Positions 3,277-36,995 of a DNA stretch of 39,108 nucleotides are shown here, piece after piece; positions within the stretch are counted from its first letter, which is position 1, and each line of letters begins with the position of its first letter. Source of the stretch: a virus; the IMG/VR virus record IMGVR_UViG_3300012208_000008, positions 1-39,108 of that record; one strand, 5' to 3'. Below the pieces are notes generated by a model, which saw nothing but the letters and a program-made list of their open reading frames with translations, was not told where the DNA came from and made no database searches. The translations under genes and the position numbers were made by a program.

Positions 3277-3836
3277 GAGTGCTGGACTTGTGCGCTGGCG
3301 AACTTGGCTGGAGCAAGATATTTGCTGCGCGTGGGCATCAGTGCGTCTGCGTGGACCTGAAGCATCCAAAGATTCTTCCTTCAGGTTGCAGGTTTATCCA
3401 GACTGACATCCTGATGCTCTACGAGGACTATGGAATTGTGATTCCTTGCTCTGGCTCGCAAACGGAGGAACGGTTCATCTTTGATTTTATCGTCGCGTCC
3501 ACTCCTTGCGAAGAGTTCTCGGTTCACGGCATGAAGCACTTCCACCCGAATCCGAAGTATCCCGAAATGGGCATCAAGCTGTTCAATCACACGCGCTCGC
3601 TCTGCGAGGCCAGCGGAGTATCGTATGTCATGGAGAACGTCCGCGCGGCGCAGCAATTCGTCGGGAACGCGGTGCATCACTGTGGGCCGTTTTACCTGTG
3701 GGGCCCAGGCGTCCCGCCATTAACTCAATCAGGGGATCACGAAATCGGTGCATGCTCTGCAAATGGCCGGCGGAAGTCTTTCTGGACCTGCGTTCAACAG
3801 GCTTTCAGCGGAAGAGAAGCGAGCCTACAGAAATAA
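3273..3836 (+). CDS. C5-cytosine DNA methyltransferase-like protein, frame broken before its C-terminus
   Basis: ATG at 3273 (ATGA overlap). Visible methyltransferase motifs: motif I VLDLCAGELGWSKIF at residues 3-17 (SAM binding) followed by VCVDL; motif IV STPCEEFS around residue 82, with the catalytic Cys; and motif VI as MENV near residue 122. It would methylate cytosine in phage DNA, possibly to evade host restriction. The target recognition domain is very short. After about residue 150 the reading frame becomes unconvincing and stops at 3836. The expected C-terminal motif (WTAQVATIPPELANCVAAY) lies in the +1 frame (see next entry). Either a real frameshift or a one-base error is likely. 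Confidence 0.7.
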   Translation: MRVLDLCAGELGWSKIFAARGHQCVCVDLKHPKILPSGCRFIQTDILMLYEDYGIVIPCSGSQTEERFIFDFIVASTPCEEFSVHGMKHFHPNPKYPEMGIKLFNHTRSLCEASGVSYVMENVRAAQQFVGNAVHHCGPFYLWGPGVPPLTQSGDHEIGACSANGRRKSFWTCVQQAFSGREASLQK

Positions 3837-4002
3837 ATCTCTCTGGCAGAATGCGAATTCCAAAAGCCTGGAGCGTCAAAAGTGGACCGCGCAAGTAGCT
3901 ACTATCCCGCCCGAGCTTGCCAACTGTGTCGCCGCCTACGCCGAGCGCTTGCTGGAGCAGCGAGCCGAGCAGCGCCCCCTGCACCGTGAGGCCGCCAAGT
4001 GA
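3748..4002 (+). pseudogene. C-terminal part of the C5-methyltransferase in the +1 frame
   Basis: This frame is open from 3724 (after a TAA at 3721-3723) to the TGA at 4000-4002. It reads LSGPAFNRLSAEEKRAY, then QKWTAQVATIPPELANCV, AYAERLLEQ. The last part matches the C-terminal helix of phage C5-methyltransferases, where an IPPELA motif closes the SAM domain. It has no convincing start signal of its own, the nearest being GTG 3748 or ATG 3763. I read it as the displaced end of the gene at 3273. A programmed +1 frameshift cannot be excluded, but I see no classic slippery site. Confidence 0.6.
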
Positions 4003-4003
4003 A

Positions 4004-4456
4004 ATGCTGACGCTGGTTCCAGTTACGCTTGAAGAGGCCAATGCTTTCGTGGAACGCTGGCACCGTCATCACAAGCCCGTACCAGGAGCGAAGTTTTGCG
4101 TAGGATGTTTCAATGACAAGACTACAGAAATCTGCGGAGTGGCAATCGTTGGCCGACCTCTTGCACGAATGCTTGACGATGGTTGGACACTTGAAGTCAA
4201 CCGGACCTGCACAGATGGTACTCGGAATGCGAACAGTTTCCTTTATGGCGCAGTTAGGCGAGCTGCTTGGGCGCTCGGTTACAAACGACTCGTCACTTAC
4301 ACGCTCGCAGAGGAATGCGGGGCGAGCCTTAGAGGCGCTGGCTTCAAACTTGTGGGTGAAGCTGGCGGAGGCCCATGGAGCAGAGAAAGCAGGCCGCGAA
4401 TCGACACGCACCCGCAGCAAAAGAAACTCAAGTGGGAAGCTGCGGCTGCACCGTGA
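4004..4456 (+). CDS. XF1762-like protein, 150 aa (GNAT-like fold suspected)
   Basis: ATG at 4004, one base after the methyltransferase-tail stop. Characteristic pattern: N-terminal VPVTLEEANAFVERWHRHHKP, then KFCVGC, a central strand GVAIVGRPLARMLDDGWTLE followed by an NRTC segment, an SFLYGAVRRAAWALGY helix, and a C-terminal GGPWSRESRPRIDTHP block. I recognise this as the phage XF1762 family, which looks like an N-acyltransferase-type fold. The biochemical role is unknown. It commonly sits among phage DNA-metabolism genes, as here beside a DNA methyltransferase. Confidence 0.75.
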   Translation: MLTLVPVTLEEANAFVERWHRHHKPVPGAKFCVGCFNDKTTEICGVAIVGRPLARMLDDGWTLEVNRTCTDGTRNANSFLYGAVRRAAWALGYKRLVTYTLAEECGASLRGAGFKLVGEAGGGPWSRESRPRIDTHPQQKKLKWEAAAAP

Positions 4457-4734
4457 GGCGAAACCGTGAGCCGCTGGCCGTGGAACTGAAATTCGAGCTA
4501 ATTCTGGATGAGCCAAAATTCTTCCGTGAAATGAAGATTGGCTGCTGGAGGTTAGTGCATGACTATGAAAGCGGCGAGGGAACCTGGTACTGGGAGGGAG
4601 CCAAGCATGACGAAACCGCAGCCCGACAGCCGCGAGAGATTAGCCGAAGCCCTGCAAGCGGAGAAGCTGCCAAAGAGATGCAATCTCCACCCGCGCGCTT
4701 GCTGGTACGACGGACCCGAGTGCCCCTGTTGTAG
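4453..4734 (+). CDS. hypothetical protein, 93 aa, GTG start
   Basis: GTG at 4453 overlaps the preceding TGA as GTGA. The N-terminal 50 residues look protein-like (ELILDEPKFFREMKIGCWR, YESGEGTWYWEG). The C-terminal 40 are Arg/Pro/Ala-rich and lie over the beginning of the next gene in another frame. The stop may have been lost, giving an elongated tail. No family recognised. Confidence 0.45.
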   Translation: MRRNREPLAVELKFELILDEPKFFREMKIGCWRLVHDYESGEGTWYWEGAKHDETAARQPREISRSPASGEAAKEMQSPPARLLVRRTRVPLL

Positions 4735-4783
4735 CGCAGAGAAAAATTTTCTTGCGCTGACTAAAAACATGGAGGACAATTAG
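4607..4783 (+). CDS. small zinc-binding protein, 58 aa
   Basis: ATG at 4607, within the end of the previous gene (128-base overlap in another frame). The product has a short charged helix (RERLAEALQAEKLP) followed by CNLHPRACWYDGPECPCC. That arrangement of four or five Cys plus His is typical of a small zinc-ribbon. The Cys cluster makes this frame more believable than the overlapping C-terminus of its neighbour. Stop TAG at 4781-4783, one base before the ATG at 4785. Confidence 0.6.
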   Translation: MTKPQPDSRERLAEALQAEKLPKRCNLHPRACWYDGPECPCCSAEKNFLALTKNMEDN

Positions 4784-4786
4784 CAT

Positions 4787-4863
4787 GGAATTCGGACGGC
4801 CCGCTGGTAGATGTTCTGCCAAGGACCGCCAGCACCGTCCGAGTTCCCCGAAAGGTCCTTGGC
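4787..4863 (+). promoter_or_regulatory. interleaved inverted repeats (pseudoknot or switch) before the winged-helix/HNH start
   Basis: Arm A GGAATTCGGACGG (4787-4799) pairs with A' CCGTCCGAGTTCC (4835-4847): 13 bp including one G-T wobble. It is extended inward by GCTGG (4803-4807) with CCAGC (4829-4833). The loop of this hairpin contains arm B GCCAAGGACC (4818-4827), which pairs perfectly over 10 bp with B' GGTCCTTGGC (4854-4863), downstream. The order A-B-A'-B' is a pseudoknot topology. Only six bases separate A' from B', so full A and full B stems probably cannot coexist; mutually exclusive hairpins are likelier. B' ends two bases before the ATG at 4866, so the B/B' stem would hinder initiation there. 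Confidence 0.7.
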
Positions 4864-4865
4864 GC

Positions 4866-5582
4866 ATGAGCTGGCACGCTACTGCTTCTGTAAAACCAAT
4901 CACACATGATGCTTTTGGAAGAAAACTCACCTCAACTGAAAAGTTAGTTCTTCTAATTTTGTCAGATTACTTTGATGATGGGAGTCACTGTGCTTGGCCT
5001 GGAATTTCTCGACTTGCTACTGAAAGCCTTCTCTCTCTTCGTCAAGTGCTGCGGGTATTGAAGTCCTTGGAGGATCGCCAGTTAATCTCAACGGAACGAC
5101 GCCCAAACAAGAGCAATGTGTATCGCTTTAAATTTCTGCCATCTGCTGAACGATGCTGGTATTGCGGAATTGATCTTGACGATATGAACCGCGTCCAAGA
5201 TCACCAAACACCGAAATCAAGAGGCGGAGGCGCAGGAAGAAATTTAGTCCTTGCATGTAAGAGCTGTAACAGCGACAAAGGTGCCAAGACTTTAGAGGAA
5301 TATAGACTTTCCCAGTTCGATGCGAGCCACAAATTCTTTGGTGAGGTAGATGACAATTTGTCACGCGCAGAAAAGGTCAATGTCATACCGGAAGTGACAT
5401 CCACGGCAGAAAACATGCCGCAAATGTCACATGAGCCTTTATCTGAGCCGTTAGGAACCGTCATTCAGCCGCTTACGCGGCCTGTGGTTGATATGGCCAA
5501 CGAAGCAATCAGAGAAAGTCAAAGGACCGGAGAAGACGCGGACGCGATTATGAAGCGTCTACGGTCGGAGGTTGTGCAGTGA
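4866..5582 (+). CDS. winged-helix DNA-binding protein fused to an HNH nuclease domain, 238 aa
   Basis: ATG 4866 gives MSWHATASVK, the kind of N-terminus usual for phage winged-helix replication-type proteins. An in-frame ATG at 4785, with GGAGG nine bases upstream, would add 27 low-complexity residues. Residues about 20-90 form a winged helix (STEKLVLLILSDYFDDG, AWPGISRLATESLLSLRQVL, LEDRQLISTER). Residues about 96-155 form an HNH/treble clef: CWYCG, DHQTPKSRGGG, NLVLACKSCNSDKG. The tail is disordered and acidic, then helical. Inferred role: origin binding or replication initiation, with the HNH domain inserted or recruited. Base composition is more AT-rich than its flanks. Overlaps the next gene by GTGA. 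Confidence 0.75.
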   Translation: MSWHATASVKPITHDAFGRKLTSTEKLVLLILSDYFDDGSHCAWPGISRLATESLLSLRQVLRVLKSLEDRQLISTERRPNKSNVYRFKFLPSAERCWYCGIDLDDMNRVQDHQTPKSRGGGAGRNLVLACKSCNSDKGAKTLEEYRLSQFDASHKFFGEVDDNLSRAEKVNVIPEVTSTAENMPQMSHEPLSEPLGTVIQPLTRPVVDMANEAIRESQRTGEDADAIMKRLRSEVVQ

Positions 5583-5794
5583 GCCTCCAAGGCGAATCCA
5601 CGCTGAACCACGCGGAGAAGATCACCGAATTCCGCAAGCACATCCACAACCTCTCGGACCACTTGGAAGAGATGACGCCGACCGAGCGCGGCTTTGTCGA
5701 GCGGATGACCGAGCAACTGGAAAGCTGGGGCGACAATACCAGCATCTCGAACAAGCAGCTATTCTGGCTGAGGGATTTGAGTTTGAAGTACTGA
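5579..5794 (+). CDS. small helical protein, 71 aa
   Basis: GTG at 5579 overlaps the upstream TGA (GTGA). The sequence is helical and charged (HAEKITEFRKHIHNLSDHLE) and ends SNKQLFWLRDLSLKY. This last motif is shared by small phage proteins found next to replication genes. No catalytic residues are visible. Position directly after the winged-helix protein suggests a replication accessory or loader-type role, which is inference. Confidence 0.7.
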   Translation: MSLQGESTLNHAEKITEFRKHIHNLSDHLEEMTPTERGFVERMTEQLESWGDNTSISNKQLFWLRDLSLKY

Positions 5795-5844
5795 GGGCCC
5801 GGCGGCGGCGCAGCATGGGAGCTAAAGAGGGGGAGGAGCGAAAA

Positions 5845-5973
5845 ATGGGTTATCAGCACAATCTGGCCTTGAAGCATCACTGCCGGTTCGCGTTCGAAAC
5901 CGCGCATCCAAGGTTCCATTTCGTGCGCCGGGGCCTGAGCGTAATCATCTCGGTCAATTCGGGCTATGAATGA
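5845..5973 (+). CDS. small hypothetical protein, 42 aa
   Basis: ATG at 5845 with a strong ribosome binding site (GGGGGAGGAG ending six bases upstream). The product is basic and aromatic (HHCRFAFETAHPRFHF) with a hydrophobic strand LSVIISVNSGYE at the end. It is too short to classify. The excellent initiation signal and intact frame are the reasons to call it. Confidence 0.5.
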   Translation: MGYQHNLALKHHCRFAFETAHPRFHFVRRGLSVIISVNSGYE

Positions 5974-5979
5974 ATCGAG

Positions 5980-6300
5980 ATGGGCTTCGGCGGGCCGGTC
6001 TGGCACTGCTCGGTTTCTAATCCGGTGATTGGATTGAGTGATTCGCGTAGCTGCCGCGAGATGGCTTATGAGATGCTTGCTGGATTCGGCGATGCATCGC
6101 TTGGCGAGTGGACCGAAGACCGGCCAAAGGCGTTCCATTTGCGCAGGCGGCTGAATGCAGCGGAGGAAAAGCGAGTCGGTCCCGCAGTGGATTGCCGCAC
6201 GACCGCAGAAGGCCAGCAGCGGTACGAGGCAATAAAGCCGGTCCTGCCAAGAGAAGCTTTGTACCTTGTGCGGGAAGAAGTGCCGGGGATTGCGATTTGA
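5980..6300 (+). CDS. conserved phage hypothetical protein, 106 aa
   Basis: ATG at 5980, preceded by GAATCGAGA. The N-terminus MGFGGPVWHCSVSNP is a recognisable start of a small protein seen in several phages. The middle is helical (AYEMLAGFGDASLGEW) followed by a Arg-rich LRRRL segment, and the end (REALYLVREEVPGIAI) looks like a strand. No function known. Coupled to the next gene through a TTGA overlap. Confidence 0.7.
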   Translation: MGFGGPVWHCSVSNPVIGLSDSRSCREMAYEMLAGFGDASLGEWTEDRPKAFHLRRRLNAAEEKRVGPAVDCRTTAEGQQRYEAIKPVLPREALYLVREEVPGIAI

Positions 6301-7635: not shown

Positions 7636-8490
7636 ATGAAGCTGCCAGCATCTACGCAGAAGATCATCGCAGAATTGAAAGAAGCGTTTGCTACCTCGCG
7701 CTTCGATGAAGGGTTGGTGCGCGAAGGCTTTGAAGAGCATCTCGAATTGCTGAAGCTGCCCAAGCGAGCGGTAGTGTTCCATCCCAATCCGGTGCGAGCA
7801 ATTCTGAAGATATACGAATTAACCGGGGCCGCTGCCGGGGCCGCTGCCTGGGCCGCTGCCTGGGACGCTGCCTGGGACGCTGCCGGGGCCGCTGCCTGGG
7901 ACGCTGCCGGGGCCGCTGCCTGGGCCGCTGCCGGGGCGAACCCCTGGAGGCCATTCCTCAAGATCGTGAAGGGCGGTTGCTTGTTTTTCTGGATGACACG
8001 CGATGCGGTCCACGTGGCTCAAGCACAGATATTTTCAATGGAGCATCCATCAGGCCAGCGGCGTCTGCATTACGAGATAGGACCGGCCATTGAATACCGC
8101 GACGGCAGCGGATTATGGTTCTGGAAGGGCACGCAAGTCACGGAGCAGACGATTCTGCGTCCCGAAACATTCACGGCGGAAGGAATTCTGGCTGAGCAGA
8201 ACGCCGAAGTGCGGCGCGTTCAGATCGAACGCTTCGGCATGGAGCGGTTCATCCGCGAGGCTAACGCCAAGATTATCCATTCCCATGAGATGGGGCAGCT
8301 CTATTCGCTGGACCTGCCGAATGATCCAGACCGCAAGCTGAAAGCCGTGCTGGTGAAAGACCCTTCTACAAATCGGGAGTATTTTTTGCGCGTACCGCCG
8401 ACCATCGAGCGGGCCGATGATGCATGCGCATGGACGTTTGGCTTTGAAGGGCTGGAAGCAAAGAATTACAGGCCGATAGTGGAAACCTAG
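7636..8490 (+). CDS. DUF6745-like protein with a tandem-repeat linker, 284 aa
   Basis: ATG at 7636, two bases after the previous stop. N-terminal helical region (STQKIIAELKEAFATSRFDEG), then an Ala-rich block of nine four-residue units (GAAA, WAAA, WDAA) at about 64-99. The C-terminal two thirds are FHYEIG/IEYRDGSGLWFWKGTQV-type beta strands and a RFGMERFI helix, which match the DUF6745 protein family as I know it. The family often has a repetitive Trp/Asp/Ala segment. Function unknown. Last plus-strand early gene; convergent with the late operon 46 bases downstream. Confidence 0.7.
   Translation: MKLPASTQKIIAELKEAFATSRFDEGLVREGFEEHLELLKLPKRAVVFHPNPVRAILKIYELTGAAAGAAAWAAAWDAAWDAAGAAAWDAAGAAAWAAAGANPWRPFLKIVKGGCLFFWMTRDAVHVAQAQIFSMEHPSGQRRLHYEIGPAIEYRDGSGLWFWKGTQVTEQTILRPETFTAEGILAEQNAEVRRVQIERFGMERFIREANAKIIHSHEMGQLYSLDLPNDPDRKLKAVLVKDPSTNREYFLRVPPTIERADDACAWTFGFEGLEAKNYRPIVET
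7825..7932 (+). repeat. nine 12-bp in-frame tandem repeats
   Basis: Nine units of KGG GMC GCT GCC encode G/W-A/D-A-A. Each unit varies only at the first base (G or T) and the fifth base (C or A). The array is in phase with the gene and so length-variable without frameshifting. Its GC-rich nature leaves the opposite strand open too, producing spurious Arg/Gln/Pro frames. Confidence 0.9.
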
Positions 8491-8901: not shown

Positions 8902-8962
8902 AAGGGGATTCCTTTCTGCTAAAATAAACGGCTGAGAGCAGCAGTCCTTTCGTGGAGGACCA

Positions 8963-9532
8963 ATGCCGAAACGCCGCATGAGACGGCATCCCGTTACTCA
9001 GCCGTCCGACACATCCTACAAGATAATCGCCCTCACCAGACAACAAAATACTTTAGTTGATGCTGACGATTATGAATGGCTCAATCAATGGAATTGGAAT
9101 GCGCACTGGGACTCTCACAGGCGTAGTTTCTACGTCACCCGCACTATCGCCGATTATAGCATTCCCGGTAAACCGCGATGGACATGTATTCGGATGCATC
9201 GCGTAATCCTTAATTGCAGTCCAGGCGAAGACTGCGATCACAAAAATCACGATACTTTAGACAATCGAAAGAAAAATCTTCGCAAGTGCAGTGTTGCGCA
9301 GAATGCGCATAATCGGAAAATTCAAAGTTCTAATACTTCGGGATTCAAAGGTGTGACATGGACTAAAACTACTCGCAGATGGCGAGTAAAAATCACAGTC
9401 AATGGCTGTGAGAAACATTTGGGTTATTTTCATTCTCTTGAGGATGCAGCCCGCTCATATGATGAAGCCGCAAAAGTCTATTATGGCGAATTCGCTGTTC
9501 TCAATTTCCCATCTACTTTGTCTTCGAACTGA
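8963..9532 (+). CDS. HNH homing endonuclease with AP2 DNA-binding domain, 189 aa, antisense to the late operon
   Basis: ATG 8963 with GGAGGACC just upstream. Residues about 20-115: strand-rich N-terminus (YKIIALTRQQNTLVDADDYEWL) followed by the HNH core MHRVILN, GEDCDHKNHDTLDNRKKNLR and CSVAQNAHNRK. Residues about 125-185 are an AP2-type domain (SGFKGVTWTKTTRRWRVKI, HLGYFHSLEDAARSYDEAA). This is the usual architecture of AP2-HNH homing nucleases, which spread by cutting gene-less alleles. It lies on the plus strand inside a minus-strand operon, is more AT-rich than its neighbours, and overlaps the 3' end of the gene at 9513 by 20 bases. Confidence 0.9.
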   Translation: MPKRRMRRHPVTQPSDTSYKIIALTRQQNTLVDADDYEWLNQWNWNAHWDSHRRSFYVTRTIADYSIPGKPRWTCIRMHRVILNCSPGEDCDHKNHDTLDNRKKNLRKCSVAQNAHNRKIQSSNTSGFKGVTWTKTTRRWRVKITVNGCEKHLGYFHSLEDAARSYDEAAKVYYGEFAVLNFPSTLSSN

Positions 9533-12379: not shown

Positions 12380-14794
12380 TCACTGTAGACGAATCCAATT
12401 GCAGCCTGCTGCCGCTGCGCTGACAAGCTGGCTTTCGAGGATCGCAGTAGTGTTCGCGGCTAGCGTTGTTGGCGTTGCCCCTGCTCCTGTGATCGTTTCA
12501 CTTGCGAAAGGCACAAGAGTTACTGCTCCTGCGTTGATGTTTCTACGATAGAGACGCTGCCCGGTGTAACCAACACATGAATCAAGAGTATGATTTCCGG
12601 TGAAGTTCAGCACGGCATATTGGTCAGCATCCTGACTCTGTGGACAAACAAGCGTTCCCTGTACGGTGATTGCGCCCATGCCTGCTGTAGCCGCAAAATA
12701 AGTAATCTGCGTTCCATTACTGGTGCGGATCAGCCAGTTCCCGCTATAACCTGCCGGGGTTGTACCTGCCACTGTGACCATATTCCCCTTGAGGCAGTTC
12801 GCTGGCGTGGCCGCAGAGGTCAATGTGACGGTGTTGGTAGCTTCACTTCCGGCAGTCGTTGCTACGGCTGCTGCAGCAGCAGAGCCGTATACGGTCGCCG
12901 TCGAGAAATCGCGGTTGCCATACAGGCGGTTGATAGCTCTCTGAATCCACGGCGTCTCGTCGTTGATGATGCCAACGTCCGTGACGTGCACATGATCGGT
13001 TGTAAAGTAGGTCGCGCTACCGTTTGCGCCGTCAGCCCCGAGATTCACATCCGCAGCGATGTCGGCGAATCCATCCGCAAACGTTGGCCAAAGCTGCCGT
13101 ATTAAAGCGTTGTTACTGTTTTTGTTGGCGTCCAGTCCCGTTCTCGAAATCATGGACACGACAATGCACTTCCAACCAACGGCGTGCCTGGCCTGGCAGT
13201 AAGATGACAGTTGCGGAATGAAATCCGTGCTGGCGTCGTTTGTTCCGCCCCAAATAACAACAGTATTCGACGGAGCATAGGGCCGGTAGATCGGATCTAT
13301 TGCTTGAGGACCAAATGGATTCAATGTAGTATCGAGTCTGTATCCCGCGCGGCCCATGTTGGTGATGTTCCAAGTGTTTCCGCCCTGAGTGTTCAGCGTT
13401 AGGTAAGCGGAATACGGTGAAGTGATGGCTGGCGTTGTCCCGATGCAACTTCCACAAGAAAGCGAATCGCCATCCACGGCAAGAATTGGATTGGAAGTAA
13501 CTAGCCCGGGTGTCCCTGGAAAAATTGTCGGTGTCACTCCGCGGTTATACATCACCATTTTCAGATAGGCGGAATTCCGTGCAACTTCTGCAGCATTGAG
13601 GGGGCGATTGTAGAACAGCGCGTAATAGATGTTTGCATTCATGTACCCGTTGCTGTTGTAGTTCGGGTTGCTTCCCCCGGCAATTCCTCCCAACTGATAA
13701 TTCCCGGTCGTTTGATGACCCTGTGAGCAGCGCTGCGCGAACCAAGCGTTAGAGGAAGTCTGACCGAAGCCGTTCTGGTCAACTCCATTAATATACATCG
13801 TATCGTTGCTCGCATGCGGCGCGTCGCAAACCATCACCCAGGCTACGTCGATGTTCCCCTCGATCATCGCGCGAGGCTGAAACGTGAGATTGTTGCCGCC
13901 TTCCATCCAGCCCGAGAAAATCCTCGACCCGGAAGTAAATGCTTGGTCGGTTTGACCGCCCTGAGTCAGCGATGGACCGGGAAACACGGTGAGCGAAAGA
14001 ATCAGGCTGCTGGTCGTTGTCCCATTCCCGGCAACGAGGGCGCCGTTGGCATTTCCGACAGGATTGCCGATGAAAAGCTGAATGGTTTGCGCTGAGTTCA
14101 GCGCTGCTGGGAGGCTACAAGCACCAGTGCCAGCGCCAGCTATTCCGCCCGTAACGGCAGTGACAGCAGGCGGCGTCCCAACCGATCCCGTGGCGTTGTT
14201 TCCACTGCCGGAGTAATCGATCAGCGCGCCGCACGTCTCACCTGGTAGGATGCGATACTCGGCCATCAAGCCGGAGGTAACAGGAACGGCTGTGAGTCCT
14301 GGCTGACCGGGGATGGACGAGGTAGTGGAAACGCCGCCGCCTGCGTTGAGTTGCGCAGGTCCGACACTGTTGATGCTCGTAGAAACGTCTTGCGTGGCTC
14401 CCGAAACCGTCACCGCCGCCGAGGTGAAAGTTTGCGCGCCCTTGCCCGCCGGCGGCGGCGTCCCCGCCGTTTGCACCGTGAAGGTGTATTGCGAGCCGCT
14501 GGGGGTGATGGCGGAATTCGGCACCAATGACATGGCGAACCTGCCGCTCGAATCCGTGGTTACCGGTGCGGCACAGTAATTTGTTTGCAGCGAGGAATTC
14601 AGCGGAGCATTGGGCGTCAGGGTAGTCCCGCTTGCGGTTGGCTGGATCGAGCTGCTGGTGGTCAGGCAAGCCTGCACATGCGCGGGATAATAGGGGACCG
14701 AGTTGGGGTCGGTGAGTGTGCCTGTAACCCTGGTCAAGGATTGGCCAAAGGAGCAGGGAGCAAGGAGAAGCAAAAGCAGGCTAAGTTTTTTCAA
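12380..14794 (-). CDS. tail fibre/receptor-binding protein with SGNH esterase domain, 804 aa
   Basis: TTG at 14794 overlaps the previous stop as TTGA. An N-terminal signal-peptide-like segment (KKLSLLLLLLAPCSFGQS, residues 2-19) is followed by a carboxypeptidase-regulatory/Ig-like domain (GTLTDPNSVPYYPAHVQACL). About 170-410 is a LamG/concanavalin-like jelly roll (GLMAEYRILPGETCGALIDY). About 437-626 is an SGNH hydrolase: block I DGDSLS (Ser444), block II GRAG (481-484), block III GGTND (516-520), block V DHVH (Asp600, His603). C-terminal beta domain. Inferred role: deacetylating a host surface polysaccharide during adsorption. A leader peptide is odd for a virion protein. Confidence 0.85.
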   Translation of the reverse strand: MKKLSLLLLLLAPCSFGQSLTRVTGTLTDPNSVPYYPAHVQACLTTSSSIQPTASGTTLTPNAPLNSSLQTNYCAAPVTTDSSGRFAMSLVPNSAITPSGSQYTFTVQTAGTPPPAGKGAQTFTSAAVTVSGATQDVSTSINSVGPAQLNAGGGVSTTSSIPGQPGLTAVPVTSGLMAEYRILPGETCGALIDYSGSGNNATGSVGTPPAVTAVTGGIAGAGTGACSLPAALNSAQTIQLFIGNPVGNANGALVAGNGTTTSSLILSLTVFPGPSLTQGGQTDQAFTSGSRIFSGWMEGGNNLTFQPRAMIEGNIDVAWVMVCDAPHASNDTMYINGVDQNGFGQTSSNAWFAQRCSQGHQTTGNYQLGGIAGGSNPNYNSNGYMNANIYYALFYNRPLNAAEVARNSAYLKMVMYNRGVTPTIFPGTPGLVTSNPILAVDGDSLSCGSCIGTTPAITSPYSAYLTLNTQGGNTWNITNMGRAGYRLDTTLNPFGPQAIDPIYRPYAPSNTVVIWGGTNDASTDFIPQLSSYCQARHAVGWKCIVVSMISRTGLDANKNSNNALIRQLWPTFADGFADIAADVNLGADGANGSATYFTTDHVHVTDVGIINDETPWIQRAINRLYGNRDFSTATVYGSAAAAAVATTAGSEATNTVTLTSAATPANCLKGNMVTVAGTTPAGYSGNWLIRTSNGTQITYFAATAGMGAITVQGTLVCPQSQDADQYAVLNFTGNHTLDSCVGYTGQRLYRRNINAGAVTLVPFASETITGAGATPTTLAANTTAILESQLVSAAAAGCNWIRLQ

Positions 14795-17199
14795 TTTACA
14801 GTCTCCAAAACTAATTGCCGCTGGGTTGCGCTGTTGGTCGCACTGGCGGCACTAAATGCGAACGCGCATTGCAAGAACAATTGCGCCGTTGAATCGATAG
14901 TTCCCACGGTCGCCGTGTTCGGATCGCCAAACACCGTATCGCCAGAAGGTATAGTGGCCGAAAGGTCTATTAAGAATTCTCCGTGTGCCTCATATGCAGA
15001 AGAAGCGCCAGCGGTCTGCGTTGTAAGTTCCGAACGCAAGGAAAAGTTTTCAGCGGCGATTGTTTGCGTGGCGAGCGCAGAAGTCTGAATGCTTATCGGA
15101 GAAATAACCGTACCGCTACCACACCCGGATACCGTGCACAGTTTCACTTTGAGTGTCATCTGTGCCGTAGAAGCGGCAGCGGTCGTATAAATTCCGGCTA
15201 CCTTGACGCGCAGCGTGCGTCCCACGCGATTCAGTGTCCCTGCTGGAATAGTGCAGGCCATCAGGTTCTGGTCGGTAGTGACATTTGCGTTGACCGTTAC
15301 CGGCGTGACGTTTGTGCATTGCCAAGCTCCGGTGGGAGAACTTGTGCCGTTGTTATTATTGTTCCAGCTCGGTGTATGCGTTCCGGAATCTCCGAACAAA
15401 CCATCCCAAGTTGCTCCCGGTGCCGATGGTGGGCTTATCTCTTTCAGTACTATTTCTCCGTTGGTGCCAAGTGAAATTAGAGAGTTGGCATCGGGAGTTG
15501 TAGAACTCGCAGCATTCGCTGGATAGGTTGCCCCGCTAAAAACAGACAACCACGATCCAGTGCCGATTTGATGGACTTCTGTGGCGCTAGCGATTCCTTG
15601 GCAAGTGGTGTTAGAGAATGTGCAAAACTTCCAGCCGACATTGCTAGCCGCCTGCGTTGGCGGTGCCGAGGTAATGGTATCGGAACCTTGCATAAGCCAA
15701 CTACCTGTAGAGTTAAGCGTTGCTTGGTTCACTGCGTTGTAGTCAAACTTCAGTTGTACTTGTGGATTGGTTCCCGCCAGCGGGCTGCTGTAAGAACTCC
15801 ATTTGTGCTCGACTGGCGCCGCGCCGTTCCAGGTGCTGTCATACCAGGAGTGATTCACGCTTCCGTAGTTGTTCCCTGCCGTGGCTACGCTTTTCTCCGA
15901 GAGCCGTACGCCGTCCACCATCGTCAGCGGACATCCGATGCAATTAGGATCGCCGATCTGCACGCCGGAACTTTTCGCGTCCTGAACCCAGTAGCCGATG
16001 TACGGTTTGTTAGCCGCAGCCGTGTAAGTAGATAAGTAATCCACGTGAATGGGAAACAGTCCGTTGTCTGTAGCTGCGAAAGCAGCTTTCAAACGGCTGC
16101 CTAGGGCCGTTCTCGTTCCGAGGCCTCCGGGGGCCGGGTCGGCGCGGTTATTGAAAGTGTTGACTTCGACGCCAAACATCTCGGCGTCGCAACTGTTGCC
16201 CAGCGTGGCGCCGCCGCAAATCGTTAGCGGGTACGCCCCGGATTCCGTCCAGGTGCAAGTGCCATCACCTACTGAAGCTCCTGCTCCCGTTGGGAAACTG
16301 GGTTGCGAACCTGAACTGGTGCAGCCAAAATCCCCGAACGCTCCGCCCGTTTGCCGATAGAAATGTCCGTTTCCAGCCGTGGGAATAACCGGCAACCCGA
16401 ATGCGTAGGAAGTCGTTCCCGCCCAGGTGTAAATCTGGTCCAGGACAAGGACCGGATTGAGCCCCCACGCACCGGAGTGGGAGGACTGTCCCATCAGCGT
16501 CACGGTTTCGAGGCCAGCGACAAGGTTAGAAGTATCCTGGGCTGGATTCGCGGTAGTCGAAGTGGATTTCAGGAAGCTGTAGAAATTGCCAGGCACGCCG
16601 GAGCCTGTGGCTAAAATATCCGAGCGGTAATAGGGAAGAACGTATGGCGAGGCTTGCGCGCGCGTGTCGGAAGAATTTGGAGAACTGTCCACGATCACGC
16701 TGTTGACCATTGCTGGAGCGGCAAATGTCGTGCTGGACTTTGGTCCCGTAAATGCCAGGGCTGGTCCGGTATACGTTTCCGTCCCGCTGTGGGTGCCCGC
16801 CGATGTTGTCGTATAAGGCAGCGTGGAAATGGTGACGCCACCGGAGAAATTAATCGCGCCTTTCGGATTTGACCCGCAAACCGGCTGCGTCTTGGTTGCG
16901 AAGCCCGAGGCCGAAATCTGCTCTTGATAGCATCCCACCGCCGCATAATATTTATAATTTCCGGCAGAGTCGGCGGTGACGATACTTCCAGCAATTGTGA
17001 CCGACAGCGCCGAGTCGCTATAAATCGTCGCCAATGGGGAACAGGGCGTTCCTGTGGCCACATCTGTGCACACGCGGATGGAGGCTCCGGCAATCGTGGC
17101 AGTGGGTCGGATCACTTCCCCGTTGAATCCGGCCCCCTGCGCCCAGGCAGATACACTCGAAACCAGGATGGCCAGAGCCATCCAAACAAACTTCCGCAT
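14791..17199 (-). CDS. large tail fibre/spike-like protein with signal peptide, 802 aa
   Basis: ATG at 17199 chosen because AGGAGA lies about nine bases upstream and the first residues form a leader (RKFVWMALAILVSSVSAWAQ). An upstream extension to 17328 overlaps the previous gene. N-terminal domain (NGEVIRPTATIAGASIRVCT, SDSALSVTIAGSIVTADSAG) resembles a beta-sandwich attachment module that also occurs as a tail-fibre anchor. The middle is Ser/Thr/Gly-rich beta sequence. The last 170 residues (IPAGTLNRVGRTLRVKVAGI, VKLCTVSGCGSG) look like a jelly-roll trimerisation or capping domain. Probably another receptor-binding component; no catalytic motif recognised. Confidence 0.75.
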   Translation of the reverse strand: MRKFVWMALAILVSSVSAWAQGAGFNGEVIRPTATIAGASIRVCTDVATGTPCSPLATIYSDSALSVTIAGSIVTADSAGNYKYYAAVGCYQEQISASGFATKTQPVCGSNPKGAINFSGGVTISTLPYTTTSAGTHSGTETYTGPALAFTGPKSSTTFAAPAMVNSVIVDSSPNSSDTRAQASPYVLPYYRSDILATGSGVPGNFYSFLKSTSTTANPAQDTSNLVAGLETVTLMGQSSHSGAWGLNPVLVLDQIYTWAGTTSYAFGLPVIPTAGNGHFYRQTGGAFGDFGCTSSGSQPSFPTGAGASVGDGTCTWTESGAYPLTICGGATLGNSCDAEMFGVEVNTFNNRADPAPGGLGTRTALGSRLKAAFAATDNGLFPIHVDYLSTYTAAANKPYIGYWVQDAKSSGVQIGDPNCIGCPLTMVDGVRLSEKSVATAGNNYGSVNHSWYDSTWNGAAPVEHKWSSYSSPLAGTNPQVQLKFDYNAVNQATLNSTGSWLMQGSDTITSAPPTQAASNVGWKFCTFSNTTCQGIASATEVHQIGTGSWLSVFSGATYPANAASSTTPDANSLISLGTNGEIVLKEISPPSAPGATWDGLFGDSGTHTPSWNNNNNGTSSPTGAWQCTNVTPVTVNANVTTDQNLMACTIPAGTLNRVGRTLRVKVAGIYTTAAASTAQMTLKVKLCTVSGCGSGTVISPISIQTSALATQTIAAENFSLRSELTTQTAGASSAYEAHGEFLIDLSATIPSGDTVFGDPNTATVGTIDSTAQLFLQCAFAFSAASATNSATQRQLVLETVN

Positions 17200-17212
17200 G
17201 GTGAATTTTCTC

Positions 17213-18160
17213 CTAAGAGGTTGGGCCGGTGAACTGGCGAAAAAATACCGTGACGCGAATCTTTCCGGCTCCTGGCGTGCCGGTGGTCGTGATTCTGAGT
17301 GGTGTCGCGGCGGTTTGCACTGGGCCAAGATTCGCGCTTGCTACCGTGGGATCGGCATGGTTGAGCCCCACTACCGTTGCGCCAAGAACGAGCTGGCCGC
17401 CTGATTGCGCCGCGGTGAAGCGTGCCGCCTGAGTAGCATCGCCAAGTTTCCAGTCGGTGGCCACGCTGATGGTCTGCGTCACGCGCGCCACTACCGCTTC
17501 AATGATTGAGTTGGCCGGCAAGAGATTCGCTACCGAGTTCGTGGTAGTGCCCACGGTCGATAGCGTCACTTCCTCGCTCATGCTTCCACGCTTCCATTGC
17601 GCGCCGGTCGCGGTTTGCTGGATGCCGTCTGCATCTTCGGTCAAGCCCGTAGTCGATTCGAGGGTGGTGAATTTCCCGGTGTTCGGAGTTGTCGAGCCGA
17701 TGGGATCCGGAATCGCCCAGGTTTTGTCTTTCAGCAGGTCGGCGTTGAGATTGGCGACTTTGGTTATCGAGGCCACCACAAAAGGAGCACTGCCCGTGGC
17801 TACCGTCGAGGTAATCTGCCCGTTGGCGCTGAGCGTGGCGAATGCAGCCGCACCGGTAACGCTCAGTGTGGTGAAATAGCCTCCCTCGGAGATGTTCAAC
17901 CCATCCAGCGTCCACACATCGGCATCCGCAACGGTGCGCAGCACCAATTTGTAGGCCACATTGGGAGCCAGCCAAATGGCAATTTCGCCATTCCCATCAG
18001 TCACGGCAGGCTGAGGATGCTGGGCGGATTGGTCCTGCGAGGTATAAAGCGGCGTTGGCGTGACGGTCCCGCTGAGGTAGCTATATAGCTTGTAACCCAC
18101 CGCTGGCGAGCCGTCCGGCAACAGATGCCGGAACTTGGGATAGCCCAGGACTTTTGCCAT
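17213..18160 (-). CDS. tail fibre/head-binding domain protein, 315 aa
   Basis: ATG at 18160 overlaps the previous stop (TGATG). Residues 1-90 form a virion-attachment module: KFRHLLPDGSPAVGYKLYSY, SGTVTPTPLYTSQDQSA, TDGNGEIAIWL and VWTLDGLNIS. This pattern is common at the N-termini of podovirus tail fibres and spikes. The middle has repeat-like FATLSANGQITSTVA sequence. The C-terminal 100 residues (VVARVTQTISVATDWKLGDA, ATPLRITTTGTPGAGKIRVT) form a beta domain found in other phage fibres. Likely connects the two larger fibres that follow to the tail. Confidence 0.75.
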   Translation of the reverse strand: MAKVLGYPKFRHLLPDGSPAVGYKLYSYLSGTVTPTPLYTSQDQSAQHPQPAVTDGNGEIAIWLAPNVAYKLVLRTVADADVWTLDGLNISEGGYFTTLSVTGAAAFATLSANGQITSTVATGSAPFVVASITKVANLNADLLKDKTWAIPDPIGSTTPNTGKFTTLESTTGLTEDADGIQQTATGAQWKRGSMSEEVTLSTVGTTTNSVANLLPANSIIEAVVARVTQTISVATDWKLGDATQAARFTAAQSGGQLVLGATVVGLNHADPTVASANLGPVQTAATPLRITTTGTPGAGKIRVTVFFRQFTGPTS

Positions 18161-36753: not shown

Positions 36754-36995
36754 ATGCCCTCGCCCTGCACGAGCTAGCCGATATCATGGAAGGAGCCTGG
36801 AACGGCAGCCACCGGATGCAAAGCAGAAAGCCCGTGCTATTCAAAAAGCGTGGCTGGAAAGTGCGCATGGGACCAGCCAAGGAGCCCACTATGCTCTTTG
36901 ATCGAAGGCGGCGGATCACGCTGCTGTTTGAGTTGTTCTTGATTGCTCTGTTTGCCCTTCTTCTCTATGTGCTGGTAACTGGTTCTCTCAAATGA
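36750..36995 (+). CDS. small membrane protein, 81 aa
   Basis: ATG at 36750 (ATGA overlap). A basic N-terminal half (LFKKRGWKVRMGP; RRRR) precedes one hydrophobic helix at the C-terminus (ITLLFELFLIALFALLLYVL). This is a C-tail-anchored arrangement. No family known. The stop overlaps the HNH gene start. Confidence 0.6.
   Translation: MNALALHELADIMEGAWNGSHRMQSRKPVLFKKRGWKVRMGPAKEPTMLFDRRRRITLLFELFLIALFALLLYVLVTGSLK

Follow-up and report, generated by a model that had tools for sequence, protein, structure and literature searches.

The window, i.e., the whole stretch of DNA that was analyzed (39,108 nt), belongs to a phage with a P22-like coat protein. It carries a gene for a protein that combines a winged helix (HTH) with an HNH domain, and interleaved inverted repeats are located at the beginning of this gene. 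The upstream gene ends with a stop codon at 4781-4783, directly followed by an ATG at 4785, and a second ATG in the same frame is found 27 codons (81 nt) further on at 4866, preceded only by the weak motif AAGG (4852-4855). Just upstream, a Mom-like DNA modification gene is encoded (4004-4456; phrog_1384, 6.5e-38), relatives of which, up to 76% identical, are present in other viral contigs without the HTH-HNH gene. The features of the locus are the following:

4771-4775, plus strand: Shine-Dalgarno sequence GGAGG, 9 nt before ATG 4785, predicted to be mostly paired, with arm B'
4783-4787, plus strand: left copy of the direct repeat GCATG that flanks the 81-nt segment
4785-4787, plus strand: first in-frame ATG; no other start has a good Shine-Dalgarno sequence
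4785-4865, plus strand: 27 in-frame codons of non-coding appearance by codon score, absent from the relatives of the protein
4787-4799, plus strand: arm A, GGAATTCGGACGG, 5' strand of the main hairpin
4803-4808, plus strand: 5' strand of the inner stem, GCTGGT
4818-4827, plus strand: arm B, GCCAAGGACC, within the loop of hairpin A
4828-4833, plus strand: 3' strand of the inner stem, GCCAGC
4835-4847, plus strand: arm A', CCGTCCGAGTTCC, 3' strand of the main hairpin
4854-4863, plus strand: arm B', GGTCCTTGGC, predicted to have the Shine-Dalgarno region as its partner
4864-4868, plus strand: right copy of the direct repeat GCATG that flanks the 81-nt segment
4866-4868, plus strand: second in-frame ATG, matching the start of the relatives (MS..W) and position 1 of phrog_1032
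4866-5582, plus strand: gene of the winged-helix and HNH protein (HTH_36, 1.4e-9; HNH_5, 8.7e-9)

A sequence-only reading of this DNA had described two strong inverted repeats in the order A-B-A'-B' that abut a gene start. The positions of all four arms and of ATG 4866 were borne out exactly by a check of the sequence, as was an inner GCTGG/CCAGC pairing, which was found to comprise six pairs (4803-4808 with 4828-4833). A and A' form 12 Watson-Crick pairs and one G-U pair (T-G in the DNA), and B and B' constitute a perfect 10-bp inverted repeat, the last base of which lies two bases 5' of ATG 4866. The order of the arms holds, with one addition: as the strong Shine-Dalgarno sequence serves the in-frame ATG 4785, the arms directly follow this initiation site and are not simply positioned upstream of ATG 4866.

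Profile matches to HNH_5 and additionally to HNH (2.9e-6) indicate that the gene product carries an HNH endonuclease domain. The N-terminal domain matches profiles of phage replication initiators (phrog_1032, 2.2e-11; phrog_270, 3.7e-10), by which the winged helix appears to be related to replication initiator proteins, and position 1 of the phrog_1032 profile falls on residue 28, i.e., on ATG 4866. Four relatives from viral contigs, all distant (22-35% identity) and aligned over the winged helix, start with MS at the residue of ATG 4866. In each of these four an in-frame stop codon is present 15-66 nt upstream of the start, so that the 27-residue extension is impossible in all of them. From these alignments ATG 4866 is likely to be the ancestral start codon. 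Searches for the HTH-HNH gene at DNA and protein level in phages, plasmids, IMG/VR and GTDB contigs returned HTH-only or HNH-only relatives and nothing else, and the same was the case in 82 related viral records and 399 genomes of one bacterial phylum. IMG/VR, GTDB contigs, GenBank phages and PLSDB plasmids yielded no homologue bearing the segment, at either the DNA or the protein level.

The 81 nt between the two start codons do not resemble the coding sequence of this phage. In the open frame a codon score of -0.26 bits per codon was obtained, a value as low as which was reached by none of 298 windows of 27 codons from confident phage genes, and the GC content of the segment peaks at the second codon position (0.70), unlike in nearly all genes of the phage. 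In an AlphaFold2 model residues 1-37 have a pLDDT near 40 and are followed by a more confident winged helix, which is weak evidence as the alignment had six rows. The alternative that the segment is simply conserved as protein from the 4785 start finds no support in view of the non-coding score and the absence of the segment from the relatives. Joining the flanks without the segment yields GGAGGACAATTAGCATGAGCTGG, a normal start as in the relatives, and this restored start together with the GCATG flanks fits an origin of the segment by insertion. Three of the five GCATG bases are the start codons themselves, and the repeat extends only two bases beyond the ATGs. The segment might be a small palindromic element that entered the gene in frame at its start codon, duplicated 5 bp of the target and is carried as a passive passenger. 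A precedent for insertions of this kind is given by the Rickettsia palindromic elements (PMC10969869), with which the segment shares that it is palindromic and keeps the frame of a protein gene open. The 27 stop-free codons, the non-coding character of the segment, the GCATG flanks and the restored start of the relatives speak for this passenger reading, whereas the shortness of the flank repeat, part of which the two ATGs impose in any case, speaks against it. Rickettsia palindromic elements measure about 150 bp and are multicopy, in contrast to 81 nt and a single copy as far as searched here: pattern scans for B..B' and A..A' in IMG/VR and GTDB contigs returned nothing resembling the element beyond the seed, and no further copy was found in these scans or in the window, so the multicopy occurrence that marks an RPE/MITE-like element was not observed. 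The homologue searches also returned no close relative with an empty site. Taken together, we consider a purely passive passenger unlikely.

By length alone the repeats are unremarkable, as both repeat counts are near shuffle levels: the window contains seven perfect 10-bp inverted repeats, compared to 4.0 in dinucleotide shuffles of the whole window, and 28 stems of at least 12 pairs with G-U allowed, compared to 24.6. The strict interlocked order A-B-A'-B' occurs once in the window and was found twice in 60 shuffled windows. The description of two strong repeats applies to A/A', which together with the inner pairs has a folding energy of -36.6 kcal/mol, but not to B/B', which is weaker (-17.8 kcal/mol) and, considered alone, occurs at about chance level. 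All statements on folding are predictions from a single sequence. The region 4770-4890 folds with -51.8 kcal/mol (z -3.55), and none of 200 shuffles was as stable. Among the 43-44 gene starts of the window this start ranks first for the intervals -60 to +60, -40 to +85 and -70 to +85 (z -3.74, -5.35 and -5.70), and it ranks 21 of 44, i.e., it is not unusual, for the interval -40 to +40, because this interval cuts the hairpin. Equally strong folds are present at several other places in the 39,108 nt.

The element could be a chance palindrome or act at the DNA level, e.g., as replication origin or protein-binding site, with no role in expression. Stems of such length are common in the shuffles, and palindromic DNA can serve as a protein site. 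Against this reading, the largest energy excess among the gene starts is found exactly here, and on the mRNA strand every imperfect pair of A, of the inner stem and of the apical stem is G-U, with the opposite strand folding more weakly (-29.0 vs. -36.6 kcal/mol). In the predicted folds this placement of the G-U pairs speaks slightly for an element of RNA rather than of DNA. A replication origin, as had been proposed, finds no supporting sign, as iteron-like direct repeats nearby and a local AT-rich stretch at the element are both absent. We regard a palindrome without a role in expression as rather improbable. Further candidates were rejected: an intrinsic terminator, as no T run follows the hairpin; translational bypassing of the T4 gene 60 type, as the reading frame stays open through the segment and leaves nothing to be skipped; and the ribozyme and riboswitch classes of Rfam, raised by the HDV-like order A-B-A'-B', for which no match was obtained. 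Rfam covariance models gave no gathering-level match in the window; for the region the sole match was to an miRNA, at a chance-level E of 2.5.

The interleaved order formally describes a pseudoknot. The sequence-only reading had judged the six-base connector after A' too short for this, and rightly so, as a linker of 6 nt cannot span 19 bp. A full H-type pseudoknot with both helices formed at once is disfavoured sterically and energetically. The partial pseudoknot that had been offered instead is unlikely as well: versions with at least seven A pairs opened come to about -33 kcal/mol or weaker compared to -38.6 kcal/mol for the plain hairpin, a rough estimate with an assumed penalty of 9.6 kcal/mol. 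As to the alternative hairpins also suggested, the A/A' and B/B' helices largely exclude each other, and A exceeds B in stability by about 19 kcal/mol. A two-state RNA switch between them would decide whether 4785 or 4866 serves as the start, and a ligand or protein might take part. The overlap of B' with the weak AAGG before ATG 4866 and the rarity of the strict interlocking in shuffles are in line with it. However, A/A' is completed before B/B' during transcription and should therefore form first, the B arms alone do not exceed chance, and Rfam returned no riboswitch or ribozyme. The switch is thus a doubtful explanation with a low probability. In a combined version, a small palindromic insertion that preserved the frame exactly at the start codon would have turned into an RNA switch, in which B' either closes the Shine-Dalgarno sequence or pairs with B and thereby selects between two in-frame nuclease starts; this version is less probable still and is considered very unlikely.

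A and A' are paired without exception in the predicted ensemble, where the partner of B' is the Shine-Dalgarno sequence and not B. The Shine-Dalgarno sequence is predicted to be 78-93% paired (unpaired probability 0.07-0.22), mainly by GGAGGAC with GTCCTT of B', which would place it inside a paired region as in systems that sequester the ribosome site. As the final base of ATG 4785 is already part of the main hairpin, this hairpin falls inside the ribosome footprint (4766-4800). To open the footprint, the model requires about 20 kcal/mol (from -52.1 to -32.4 kcal/mol). With the segment deleted, the Shine-Dalgarno sequence is still predicted to be partly paired (unpaired 0.31). Given this cost of opening and the predicted pairing, repression of initiation in cis is the most likely effect. 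The following mechanism is conceivable: the 81-nt structured segment would part the Shine-Dalgarno sequence from the likely ancestral start of the HTH-HNH gene; the mRNA would form the stable hairpin of A/A' and the inner stem from the third base of ATG 4785 on, blocking the first codons; and B' would fold back onto the Shine-Dalgarno sequence. Hairpin and B'/Shine-Dalgarno pairing would reduce loading of the 30S subunit, so that translation would be low unless the fold is opened. Relief might be provided by a ribosome that finishes the upstream gene at the stop codon 4781-4783 and opens the fold, or by a transcript starting inside the leader; a scan of 3800-6200, the leader included, that covers promoters of the sigma-70-like type detected no site. 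Ribosomes that are loaded would begin at ATG 4785 and read on in frame, resulting in an additional, disordered tail of 27 residues. That a structured segment between the Shine-Dalgarno sequence and the ancestral start represses initiation of the HTH-HNH gene in cis is, with all its parts, a model to which we assign about an even chance. The suggestion that the element controls initiation of the winged-helix/HNH gene is in this form the best-supported reading, with the exceptional structure of the start, the HTH_36 and HNH domains and the documented hairpins of phage endonuclease genes pointing in its direction.

RNA hairpins that sequester ribosome sites were described for the phage homing endonucleases I-TevI, I-TevII, I-TevIII, SegB and MobE (PMC2988022; PMC3014915). 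By analogy, the ribosome-site hairpins of these genes (I-TevI/II/III, T4 segB and Aeh1 mobE) represent the closest known case: a phage endonuclease gene begins with a very stable RNA structure, and a consensus Shine-Dalgarno sequence near the AUG is predicted to be paired. In contrast to these hairpins, the main hairpin is located here downstream of the first AUG and inside the open frame, a second, weaker helix closes the Shine-Dalgarno sequence, the sigma-70-like scan found no promoter inside the leader, such as a late one that would give a shorter transcript free of the structure, and the protein is an HTH-HNH protein with at most putative homing. Split sites, in which structure improves initiation, were reported for T4 genes 25 and 38, and a pseudoknot for gene 32 (PMC3014915). 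A split ribosome-binding site would mean here that the fold brings the Shine-Dalgarno sequence near to ATG 4866 and aids initiation there. As in genes 25 and 38, structured RNA lies between the Shine-Dalgarno sequence (4771-4775) and a start codon, here the likely ancestral one, and the non-coding appearance of the segment would agree with it. However, the spacing is 22-27 nt in the T4 genes compared to about 90 nt from the Shine-Dalgarno sequence to ATG 4866, and an extra, well-spaced in-frame AUG precedes the structure here, so that good spacing already exists at ATG 4785. Hairpin A alone leaves a spacer of 29 nt, about 13 nt would require the disfavoured pseudoknot of A and B, and the Shine-Dalgarno sequence is predicted to be paired. 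A split site is accordingly judged improbable. The leader of gene 32 in T4/T2 resembles the present one in its interleaved pairing and in preceding a phage gene of DNA metabolism, but it folds into a genuine, compact pseudoknot to which the gene product binds, whereas a pseudoknot is disfavoured here. If repression in cis were confirmed, the control of phage endonuclease genes by hairpins, so far a feature of T4-like phages, would extend to an unrelated environmental phage, and the locus would give an example of a control element that arises by placing a palindromic segment between Shine-Dalgarno sequence and start codon.

Other HNH genes of the window were compared with respect to their starts. 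The AP2-HNH gene (ATG 8963) ranks 3-4 of 43-44 starts in all four intervals, and its Shine-Dalgarno sequence lies within a small hairpin, GTCCTTTCGTGGAGGAC (8940-8966), just 5' of the ATG. The starts of the HNH gene at 36992 and of the HNH-like gene at 1532 are not consistently structured. The notion that all HNH genes of this phage have structured starts was dropped, as it looked good with one choice of interval and applied to only two of the four genes with the others.

Further structures were observed elsewhere. A hairpin of 22 pairs (906-964) precedes ATG 986, with a second hairpin at 853-903. The region 900-970 folds with -34.6 kcal/mol compared to -23.4 kcal/mol on the other strand, and its imperfect pairs are G-U on the plus strand, a pattern that suggests an RNA structure maintained in that leader, as far as folding predictions go. 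As a candidate RNA element, this hairpin may surpass the one at 4787-4863. Three near-identical copies of AGCTAGCAGGCAGCAAGAAGGGGAAGGG (807-834, 1115-1142 and 1361-1388), of which 0 are expected by chance, are located at gene boundaries adjoining ribosome-binding regions and are possibly recombination or expression seams. On the minus strand, 12380-17328 is occupied by two very long genes, with products of 804 and 845 aa, and a PHROG search gave no match for the 804-aa gene. The strongest local fold of the window (7811-7948) is due to tandem repeats, as a 12-bp repeat of the CCGGGGCCGCTG type is located there inside a DUF6745 gene.
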